This document shows positions 24,259 to 26,699 of a stretch of 64,000 nt of DNA, piece after piece. Within the stretch, counting starts at the first letter, position 1. The number at the start of each line of letters is the position of its first letter. Under the pieces are notes generated by a model that saw only the letters and a list, made by a program, of their open reading frames with translations, was not told where the DNA came from and made no database searches. Made by a program: the position numbers and the translations under genes. Origin of the DNA: Advenella kashmirensis W13003 (GTDB lineage Bacteria; Pseudomonadota; Gammaproteobacteria; Burkholderiales; Burkholderiaceae_B); the NCBI RefSeq assembly GCF_000506985.1, contig NZ_KI650979.1, forward strand, positions 1,736,710 to 1,800,709, read 5' to 3'.

Positions 24259-25707
24259 TTATTGTCCCGGACACTCCGCGCATTCTCCTGCCAGATCTTC
24301 GGCCAGGCGCAATTGCGCGCTCAGGTCGCGCAGTGCAGTACGTACGCCTTCTTCAATCACCGGATGATAAAACGGCATGTCCAGCATTTGCGCAATGGTC
24401 ATCTTCTGCTGATGGGCCCATGCCAGCAGATGCGCCAGGTGTTCGGCTGCCGGACCGACCATTTCTGCACCCAGCAGGCGGCCGCTGCCATGTTCGGCAT
24501 AGATGCGCAGATGCCCCTTGTTAATGCCCATGACGCGACTGCGACCCTGATTGCGGAAGGATACTTCACCCACCGCATAGCAACCACAATTGTCATAGGT
24601 ATTGCTGATTTCCTTAAAGCGCATGCCGATGCTGGCGATCTGTGGATCACTGAAGACAACACTCAGTTGCGAGCGGCGCAGACCTTCTGAAATCGCAGGA
24701 AAGTGGCCGGCGTTGGTGCCTGCAATCATGCCCTGGTCAGAAGCTTCGTGCAGCAACGGCAATTGATTGGAGGCGTCTCCGGCAATAAAAATGTGTTCCG
24801 CACTGGTTTGCATGGTGTAGCGATCCGCCTTGGGAACGCCGCGTTCATCCAGCTCAATGTCAAACGTATCCAGGCCAAGATTATCGACGTTTGGTTTGCG
24901 ACCCGTGGCGGCAAGCAGATAATCTACTGTCACCGAGCCGCTTTTGCCGTCTTCGGTATAGTCGACTTTGACACCTTTACCGCTTTCAAGCAGACTGACA
25001 CTGGTATCGGCATCCAGATGCAGCTTCATTTCACTGTTGAAAATTTCCAGTGCCTTTTCCAGGATGACCGGGTCAGTAATACCGCCCAATGCATTGTCCT
25101 TCCCGAAAATGTGAACCTCAACGCCCAGGCGGTGCAGTGCCTGTCCGATTTCCAATCCGATCACACCGGCGCCGAATACGGCGACGCTGGCCGGCAATGT
25201 TTCCCAGTCGAAGACATTGTCGTTGATGATCAGGCGATCCCCCAGGGATTGCCAGGCTGGTACCACGAAGGGACGCGAGCCGGTGGCGATCACGATGCGC
25301 TGGGCGGTAATCTCGGTATGCTCGTCTACAACAATAACGTGTTCGTTCCTGAAGCGCGCCCGGCCCAGGATACGTCGATCCGCCGGAAAGGCTTCGACGT
25401 CTTCCAGCACAAATCCGACAAAGCGGTCGCGCTCTTCGCGGACGCGTTTCATGACTTCGTGGCCTTCGATGCGCAGGGCGCCGTCCGGATGGATGCCGAA
25501 CTGGTCGGCTTCACGCACATGATGGGCGGCATCGGCGGCCGCGATCAGCAGCTTCGAAGGCATACATCCGACGCGGGCGCACGTGGTGCCAAACATGTGA
25601 TCTTCTACCAGATAGACATTTTCAGTGGCCTTGCGGGCGGCGCGAAAGGCGCTCATGCCAGCGGTGCCACCGCCAAGAATGACGACATCGGCGTTGATTG
25701 ACTTCAT
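24259..25707 (-). CDS. Dihydrolipoyl-dehydrogenase-like flavoprotein disulfide reductase with C-terminal CxxC
   Basis: The 482-residue protein has the FAD motif VVILGGGTAGMSA and the active-site disulfide motif TTCARVGCMPSK. The NAD(P) motif is VAVFGAGVIGLEIGQ, the second FAD motif is HIFIAGDASN, and the dimer-interface catalytic His-Glu is in FYHPVIEEG. It ends GECAECPGQ, giving an extra CxxC at the extreme C terminus. Lipoamide dehydrogenases normally lack such a pair, whereas mercuric reductase and large thioredoxin reductases use C-terminal Cys pairs to reach their substrates. No 2-oxoacid dehydrogenase genes are nearby. A peroxiredoxin-glutaredoxin gene lies upstream on the same strand. 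The substrate is unknown. Confidence 0.87.
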   Translation of the reverse strand: MKSINADVVILGGGTAGMSAFRAARKATENVYLVEDHMFGTTCARVGCMPSKLLIAAADAAHHVREADQFGIHPDGALRIEGHEVMKRVREERDRFVGFVLEDVEAFPADRRILGRARFRNEHVIVVDEHTEITAQRIVIATGSRPFVVPAWQSLGDRLIINDNVFDWETLPASVAVFGAGVIGLEIGQALHRLGVEVHIFGKDNALGGITDPVILEKALEIFNSEMKLHLDADTSVSLLESGKGVKVDYTEDGKSGSVTVDYLLAATGRKPNVDNLGLDTFDIELDERGVPKADRYTMQTSAEHIFIAGDASNQLPLLHEASDQGMIAGTNAGHFPAISEGLRRSQLSVVFSDPQIASIGMRFKEISNTYDNCGCYAVGEVSFRNQGRSRVMGINKGHLRIYAEHGSGRLLGAEMVGPAAEHLAHLLAWAHQQKMTIAQMLDMPFYHPVIEEGVRTALRDLSAQLRLAEDLAGECAECPGQ

Positions 25708-25772
25708 ATTCGATTCCTGATGTTGGAGGTTTCTGACGCGCAAGCAGTTCTGATTCTACCGGCGTGCGGGCG

Positions 25773-25811
25773 AAAAAAAAAGCAGCGGCATCACGAGCGT
25801 GAGCCTGCTGC
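25773..25811 (-). terminator. Intrinsic terminator of the peroxiredoxin-glutaredoxin gene
   Basis: On the minus strand GCAGC, GGC and TCACG pair with CGTGA, GCC and GCTGC. A run of nine T follows directly. It separates the hybrid peroxiredoxin gene from the flavoprotein gene. Confidence 0.9.
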
Positions 25812-25964
25812 CGTCGATTCGGCGGGGGTCATTGCAATGCAGTGAGCGCGACTGTGCACGCTTCTGGCCTGCTTGCCGGAACGGATCCGGCAGGTGCCGC
25901 GATCTGGACAGTTTACCGCTGAAAGCCGGGCTGTCCGATCGCTGCCGCGATGACGTTGCGCGGA

Positions 25965-26699
25965 TTACTTACCAGCGAAGTGTGCTGCCAGCTCGTCGCT
26001 GCCACCAATATACTGGCCACCGATGAAAATTTGCGGTGTGCTGGTTTTACCGGTAATCGCGCGGATGGCCACGGTGCTGGCATCCTTGCCCAGAACGACT
26101 TCTTCGTATGGCAGGTCTTTTTCCGTCAGCAGTGCTTTGGCTTTGGCGCAGTAGCCGCAACCAGGCTTGCTGAACATGACGATGGAAGGCTTGTCCTGAT
26201 AGTCTTTATCGATATAGCGGATCATGGTGTCGGCATCAGACACTTCAAACGGATCGCCTTCTTTTTCAGGTTCGATAAACATTTTTTCGACCACGCCGTC
26301 TTTGACGAGCATGGAGTAACGCCATGAACGTTTGCCAAAGCCCAGGTCGTTTTTGTCGACCAGCATGCCCATGCCTTCGGTAAATTCGCAGTTGCCGTCA
26401 GGAATAACAGTGATATTGTCGGCTTCCTGTTGGGATTTCCATTCATTCATGACGAAGGTATCGTTTACGGAAACGCAGACAATCTCGTCAACCCCGCGTT
26501 CCTTGAACGCTTTGGCCAGTTCGTTGTAACGTGGCAGGTGGGTAGAGGAGCAGGTTGGCGTGAATGCGCCAGGCAGTGAAAAGACGACAACCGTCTTGCC
26601 TTTGAAAAGATCATCAGTGGTTACTTTTTCCCATGCGTCGCCTGAGCGGACAGGAAATGTAACGGATGGGACGCGTTGGCCTTCTTTATTCTGCAACAT
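25965..26699 (-). CDS. Peroxiredoxin-glutaredoxin fusion (Prx5-Grx)
   Basis: The 244-residue protein joins a Prx5-type peroxiredoxin (residues 1 to about 160, peroxidatic Cys in [12 protein letters not shown]) to a glutaredoxin (about 170-244, CGYC in [12 protein letters not shown] and [15 protein letters not shown]). Such hybrids reduce peroxides with glutathione, the glutaredoxin domain recharging the peroxidase. The ATG has AAGGAA upstream. It is a single-gene unit with its own terminator, and the AT-rich upstream region holds its promoter. Confidence 0.95.

Follow-up and report, generated by a model that had tools for sequence, protein, structure and literature searches.

Flavoprotein disulfide reductases encoded beside a fusion of peroxiredoxin and glutaredoxin (Prx-Grx) appear in the literature under several names. 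The neisserial reductases NGO0925 and NMB0947 and Vibrio cholerae VC2638 lie beside a Prx-Grx gene by locus number; their membership of the family studied here is derived from locus order alone, and VC2638, next in number to prxA (VC2637), is a putative member. The gonococcal gene is printed as gor (PMC6172773, PMC2881104, PMC3135505), and a table in the last of these sources gives NGO0925/NMB0947 as gor and NGO0926/NMB0946 as peroxiredoxin. NGO0925 is also listed as dldH in metabolic work (PMC10470122), and NMB0947 is named lpdA2 (PMC5031443). The printed names of the neisserial reductase thus conflict, with glutathione reductase on one side and dihydrolipoamide dehydrogenase on the other. 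Haemophilus influenzae HI0572 (PGdx; PDB 1nm3), a hybrid of Prx5-type peroxiredoxin and glutaredoxin that is described as glutathione dependent (PMC1361801), is built like the fusion protein of the present locus (P0002) and is its best PDB match, with an E value of 1.6e-110. The best structural match of the reductase, PDB 3ic9 from Colwellia psychrerythraea, belongs to the same NF004939/PRK06292 family and aligns over 468 residues with a TM score of 0.94, but it has no cysteine in the loop at residues 374 to 376, and the alignments exclude its last 20 or so residues. Mercuric reductase (MerA) and the large thioredoxin reductases (TrxR/TGR) share the disulfide reductase fold and an extra C-terminal redox or metal-binding pair with the present protein; their ends are CC or Sec containing, whereas the present reductase ends in a CxxC that is linked to a cysteine motif in a loop. 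In Vibrio alginolyticus, the fish-vaccine antigen called "DLDH" has been modelled with 3IC9 as the template (60.17% identity; PMC8089398), so it probably belongs to the NF004939-type family and not to the classical dihydrolipoamide dehydrogenases (E3). A search of the open-access literature, with subscription journals mostly outside its scope, found no enzyme assay of an NF004939 family member.

The window (the whole stretch of Advenella kashmirensis W13003 DNA that was analyzed, 64,000 nucleotides) contains such a gene pair (Table 1). The Prx-Grx gene lies upstream of the reductase gene on the same strand, as the initial annotation had noted, with a gap of 257 bp, and this order is kept in all 129 loci (at least 50% identity) in which both genes were found, with a median gap of 168 bp. 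Translation from an upstream TTG instead of the ATG would give a reductase of 494 rather than 482 amino acids. The protein contains exactly six cysteines, at positions 43, 48, 374, 376, 476, and 479, which are the catalytic pair plus four cysteines of a tail and loop set. The C-terminal CxxC of the initial annotation is present, though not five residues from the end as claimed, since the last cysteine (C479) is the fourth residue from the end; the loop pair had gone unmentioned. The intergenic hairpin of the window was not listed by a simple hairpin scan, and similar hairpins followed by T8 occur in all three Advenella loci (L031 to L033). It is possibly a partial terminator, and because this hairpin with its T9 stands between them, prx-grx and the reductase gene need not form a single simple transcript. 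The closest named relatives of the reductase are Advenella proteins (86 to 87% identity), and L031 has neighbors of the same kinds as those of the window on both sides.

Table 1. Features of the prx-grx/reductase gene pair, with positions in the window
Feature	Position	Strand	Basis or remark
Prx5-type peroxiredoxin fused to glutaredoxin (P0002), 244 aa	25965..26699	-	Pfam Redoxin + Glutaredoxin
Terminator-like hairpin + T9 between both genes	25768..25822	-	-21.7 kcal/mol, z -3.3
Flavoprotein disulfide reductase (P0001), 482 aa from ATG	24259..25707	-	NCBIfam NF004939
Catalytic CARVGC disulfide, C43-C48	25564..25581	-	C43 and C48 invariant in 87 rows (alignment A1); coordinates calculated from residue numbers
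Loop CGC, residues 374-376	24580..24588	-	Co-varies with tail CxxC
Hairpin residues E405-H406-G407	24487..24495	-	Top two (407, then 405) by Fisher test against the tail among the 278 other variable core columns
Catalytic base motif H448-P-V-I-E-E453	24349..24366	-	H448, P449, E452, and E453 invariant (A1)
C-terminal CAEC (C476/C479), then PGQ and stop	24271..24282	-	Protein sequence; tails of relatives

The reductase matches the NF004939 model "dihydrolipoyl dehydrogenase" (PRK06292.1-1) with 720.8 bits against a cut-off of 435. It contains the superfamily domains PF07992 (Pyr_redox_2) and PF02852 (dimerisation), the CxxxxC motif, and the His-Glu dyad, with C43, C48, H448, and E453 invariant in the 87 rows, which makes it a flavoprotein disulfide reductase and bears out the complete core that had been claimed for it. 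It falls below the cut-offs of the canonical E3 model TIGR01350 (269.5 against 408.8 bits), the glutathione reductase model NF004776 (197.7 against 480), the mercuric reductase model TIGR02053 (266.1 against 454.45; the tail is CAEC, with no vicinal CC), and the large thioredoxin reductase/TGR model TIGR01438 (93.4 against 475.85). Two other E3s of the same genome pass TIGR01350 with 533.6 and 489.8 bits. One belongs to pyruvate dehydrogenase and the other to 2-oxoglutarate dehydrogenase, and each is clustered with its E1 and E2 genes away from the reductase gene. At the strand end of the NAD domain, both of these E3s have an acidic residue, whereas the window reductase has Gly202. This position is acidic in none of the 112 family rows, which have Gly, Ala, Ser, Thr, or Asn instead, and the following position, 203, is basic in only 46 of the 112 rows (39 Arg and 7 Lys). 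The sequences thus give no clear sign of a preference for NADPH.

As annotated, the gene would encode an ordinary spare dihydrolipoamide dehydrogenase. NF004939 and the best structure, 3ic9, are both named dihydrolipoyl dehydrogenase, the neisserial names dldH and lpdA2 agree with them, and a lipoate-protein ligase gene adjoins the reductase gene in L163. Against a spare E3 stand the missed TIGR01350 cut-off, which the genome's own two E3s exceed, and the lack of oxoacid-dehydrogenase genes adjoining the reductase gene in the window, an absence that the initial annotation had also reported. In a study of V. cholerae in flies, deletion of VC2638 is described as causing no virulence defect, whereas gcvT, gcvP, and gcvH deletions were defective; this evidence is weak because the authors suggest redundancy with VC2412 (PMC5473594). 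On balance, a spare E3 appears quite unlikely.

The core could also reduce GSSG, replace or back up glutathione reductase (Gor), and feed the glutaredoxin domain of the neighboring protein, the tail being a side issue. All 11 genomes of the family comprising Neisseria and its kin, among 60 genomes with the reductase, are without a Gor match at an E value of 1e-100 or below (the family was named through five proteins of one of its genera that are identical to named Neisseria proteins). The name gor of the gonococcal gene and the use of glutathione by the H. influenzae Prx-Grx hybrid (PMC1361801) point in the same direction. However, Gor occurs in 27 of the 60 genomes with the reductase and in 36 of 57 genomes without a strong match to it (Fisher p 0.064, kinship ignored), the 57 having been taken from the listed rows below the cut-off of each search, so they may hold weaker relatives of the reductase. 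The NF004776 score is also far from its cut-off, and the window genome itself encodes Gor (617.8 bits), so that GSSG reduction by the reductase would be redundant there. We regard a substitute for Gor as possible but doubtful. The idea that the tail marks genomes with missing Gor was rejected for want of a clear link: 13 of the 22 tailed genomes and 14 of the 38 untailed ones have Gor.

The terminal CxxC is no chance occurrence: 41 of the 112 proteins with at least 50% identity (counting the one from the window) have it, against none of 34 more distant ones (below 50% identity); the loci are the best scoring of each search plus 40 further ones, a nonrandom set in which close relatives are overrepresented. 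The first tail cysteine follows the active-site histidine by 28 residues in 60 of 73 tailed proteins and by 27 in the other 13. The residues between the histidine and the CxxC vary, and the tail mostly ends in a short Gly-containing stretch. In a core tree of 122 rows, 40 of the 41 tailed rows fall into one clade of 59, which has an SH-aLRT value of 93, just below the tool's mark of 95, and within which the tail was repeatedly lost; the 41st, L111, lies outside. The tail CxxC is thus conserved mainly within one clade, and the conservation that the initial annotation had proposed to check holds in that clade with repeated losses and, L111 excepted, ends there. A recent stop codon or frameshift was considered as the cause of tail loss and rejected, with no remnant of the tail seen by eye after the stop in eight untailed loci (L002, L047, L082 to L084, and L086 to L088).

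The tail does not follow the Prx-Grx gene. Of the 41 tailed proteins, 28 have a Prx-Grx gene within the available stretch (mostly 1.5 kb on each side), and 13 do not. Of nine independent tree pairs, tail and Prx linkage change in the same way in a mean of 0.5 pairs and in opposite ways in 1.8, with no difference in 6.7. In 60 genomes hand-picked among those with a close reductase match, other matching genomes having been left out, the fusion is present in 12 of 22 tailed and 35 of 38 untailed genomes; the ten tailed genomes that lack it include two with a short Prx match as the only hit and one that is 88% complete. Because tail and linkage dissociate both on the tree and across these genomes, the tail is not simply there for the neighbor, and adaptation to Prx-Grx was rejected as its sole cause. 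The suggestion that the CxxC serves the fusion protein, made when the locus was first annotated, is not supported. Both glutaredoxin cysteines are kept in all Prx-Grx proteins compared (52 tailed and 72 untailed), and no cysteine is among the eight Prx-Grx columns with the greatest difference between tailed and untailed genomes.

These results also bear on a shuttle of the TrxR or MerA type, in which the terminal CxxC would swing to C43-C48 of the partner subunit and hand on electrons or a metal ion to a large substrate, for example Prx-Grx. C476 and C479 follow the active-site histidine by 28 and 31 residues, a tail length that we take to be close to that of Plasmodium TrxR. The fold is shared with MerA (PDB 1zk7; TM score of 0.85). 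The C-terminal cysteine pair of MerA is described as delivering to the opposing monomer (PMC10587081), and the C-terminal center of mammalian TR is described as a substrate of the N-terminal center (PMC3530482). Six of the eight most different Prx-Grx columns lie in the glutaredoxin domain, a distribution that kinship alone could explain. In contrast, the tail does not track Prx-Grx, its best correlates are a loop at 374/376 and a hairpin at 405 to 407 and not active-site residues, and the scores miss the MerA (266.1 of 454.45) and TGR (93.4 of 475.85) cut-offs. The analogy also leaves the linked loop cysteines unexplained, and we consider such a shuttle unlikely.

The column that best separates tailed from untailed rows is 376, with cysteine in 80% of 40 tailed and 1% of 71 untailed rows (L111 omitted), followed by columns 371, 406, 370, 28, and 297; column 374, in the same loop, has cysteine in 53% of tailed and 3% of untailed rows. 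In 155 distinct proteins (of 197 rows, 34 with less than 50% identity were dropped, and eight exact duplicates were merged, reducing 163 to 155), cysteine at 374/376 and the tail CxxC occur together in 65, are both absent in 80, and occur singly in 8 (tail only) and 2 (loop only), so that 65 of 73 tailed but only 2 of 82 untailed proteins have the loop cysteine. With any cysteine at aligned positions 370 to 377 counted, the numbers are 67 both, 79 neither, 6 tail only, and 3 loop only (Fisher p 1e-32, kinship ignored); the loop was defined at first as 373 to 376 and then widened to 370 to 377 after the rows had been seen, and the count was repeated with 374/376 alone. Each of the loop-only proteins (L012 and L054, and L128 in the wider count) retains a single tail cysteine, while untailed L108, L123, and L126 have one tail cysteine and no loop cysteine. 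Of the eight tailed proteins without cysteine at 374/376 (L009, L010, L055, L057 to L059, L132, and L146), L009 and L010 have a cysteine at 371 instead and L057 to L059 have one at 406; L055, L132, and L146 have none at 374/376, 371, or 406. L111 was excluded from the tailed set at first, its tail looking like chance and its position being outside the clade, and was later counted as tailed on the basis of its aligned CxxC and loop cysteine, a choice that favors the co-variation reading.

The association remains when kinship is controlled. In eight independent contrasts, a mean of 6.3 agree between loop (374/376) and tail and 0.0 disagree, with a median sign-test p of 0.031 (range, 0.016 to 0.125); for the wider loop, 6.4 agree and 0.1 disagree. 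The test rests on few events, and the median p is 0.0625 without L111 and 0.219 with the first 112 rows. By Fisher test, columns 407 and 405 lead the 278 other variable core columns, with 138 almost equal to them, and the kinship-controlled agreement of these three (4.0, 3.0, and 2.8, respectively) is weaker than that of the loop. Column 138 is distant from the loop in sequence, yet it is nearly as strong as 405. No published account of linked tail and loop cysteines was found in the open-access literature (subscription journals being mostly outside the scope), and their co-variation, as read from sequence comparison, is a new finding.

The same pattern is repeated within a single genus. The reductase is present in 45 of 46 genomes of Neisseria, and among 25 Neisseria loci (L178 to L202), all 14 tailed ones have a loop cysteine and none of the 11 untailed ones does; five of the 14 match named Neisseria proteins of the earlier set exactly, which is how the genus was recognized, and the untailed L191 has a cysteine further along, at the strand. 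Tailed Neisseria proteins mostly have one loop cysteine, so a four-cysteine site is not universal. The split of the genus into members with tail and loop and members with neither offers a natural comparison set. Elsewhere, L213, L215, and L220 have additional tail cysteines together with a CxC loop.

The cysteines might be neutral passengers, specific to lineages and without a joint function, and tail and loop were indeed each lost several times while the gene pair was kept. This explanation would have to account for two separate segments being gained and lost in parallel and for a tail spacing of 27 or 28 residues in 73 of 73 tailed proteins despite variable intervening residues, and it seems to us improbable. 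The gain and loss of the tail cysteines in step with those of the loop suggest instead a second thiol or metal site, rather than merely an arm that carries electrons to the neighboring protein.

The AlphaFold2 monomer models of the window reductase and L003 have mean pLDDT values of 93.5 and 90.9, respectively, but the last 12 and 18 residues are poor, with tail values of 53/44 and 61/49, and because of this low confidence, docking of the tail is seen in neither model. Strand 399-405 ends where residues 405 and 407 are located, and the order of strands puts it next to strand 377-383, which follows the loop. By comparison with glutathione reductase structures, this edge of loop and hairpin is presumably the end of the sheet that points away from the substrate pocket of the partner subunit.

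Our preferred reading, to which we assign a probability of about 0.5, is that the protein is an NAD(P)H disulfide reductase of an OxyR-linked stress defense that acts on a small disulfide and has a second thiol or metal site formed by tail and loop. It would be an NAD(P)H-driven flavoprotein, not the E3 of an oxoacid dehydrogenase, and electrons would run from NAD(P)H via FAD to C43-C48. From there, they would reach a small or protein disulfide in a pocket that, as is usual in the family, would be completed by H448' and E453' of the partner subunit. The substrate would most likely be GSSG or another low-molecular-weight disulfide, and the glutaredoxin domain of the neighboring protein would be supplied in this way as well. 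The second site is proposed on the basis of the co-variation and of the 2+4 cysteine count of the window reductase. On the dimerisation domain, the tail CxxC and loop 374/376 would meet at the far edge; the simplest forms of such a site would be a Cys4-type metal (putatively zinc) center or a disulfide by which the tail is pinned or switched. This site would be accessory to catalysis, because many homologs keep the gene pair but lack the whole cysteine set. More tentatively, the CxC loop and CxxC tail may form a redox-sensitive metal site that acts as a switch responding to oxidants or metals, or as a second exit site for electrons; no description of a regulatory thiol center of this kind in the superfamily was found in the open-access literature.

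The link to OxyR draws on gene order and on described regulons. A gene above the curated OxyR cut-off lies near the pair in 3 of 10 loci with listed neighbors (L038 of Enterobacillus, L042 of Zobellella, and L171), and none was found in the stretch of the window that was read. V. cholerae prxA is described as divergent from oxyR, with expression that peroxide increases and loss of oxyR decreases (PMC3534063). In Neisseria, control of kat, gor, and prx is ascribed to OxyR (PMC2881104), and prx and gor are assigned to its regulon (PMC6172773). In two studies, V. cholerae prxA mutants are reported to be no more sensitive to peroxide (PMC3534063; PMC3040672), and one of these reports greater sensitivity to a nitric oxide donor (PMC3040672), so "peroxide defense" may be too narrow a term. 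Three loci without an adjacent Prx-Grx gene have other neighbors: a ferritin-domain (Dps-like) gene lies near the tailed L158, the lipoate-protein ligase gene adjoins the tailed L163, and an AhpC-type peroxiredoxin gene is near the partly tailed L165.

In the core tree, the window reductase, together with L031 to L033, groups with Neisseria-like proteins (SH-aLRT of 91 with 20 rows and 99 with 21 rows), and L089, L095, L096, and L102, from the same family as the window organism, form a separate group (100). The window Prx-Grx shows 72 to 74% identity with that of Neisseria, slightly above the 67 to 71% shared with those four. Since the reductase groups with Neisseria, and Prx-Grx is slightly closer to it, rather than with their own family, the sequence comparison suggests horizontal transfer of the prx-grx/reductase pair.

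The reductase gene stands beside a Prx-Grx fusion gene in many proteobacteria, and authors are split between glutathione reductase and lipoamide dehydrogenase as its product. The linked four-cysteine trait provides a direct means of separating these readings, and it may reveal a new site of control or exit in an enzyme superfamily that has been studied very thoroughly.
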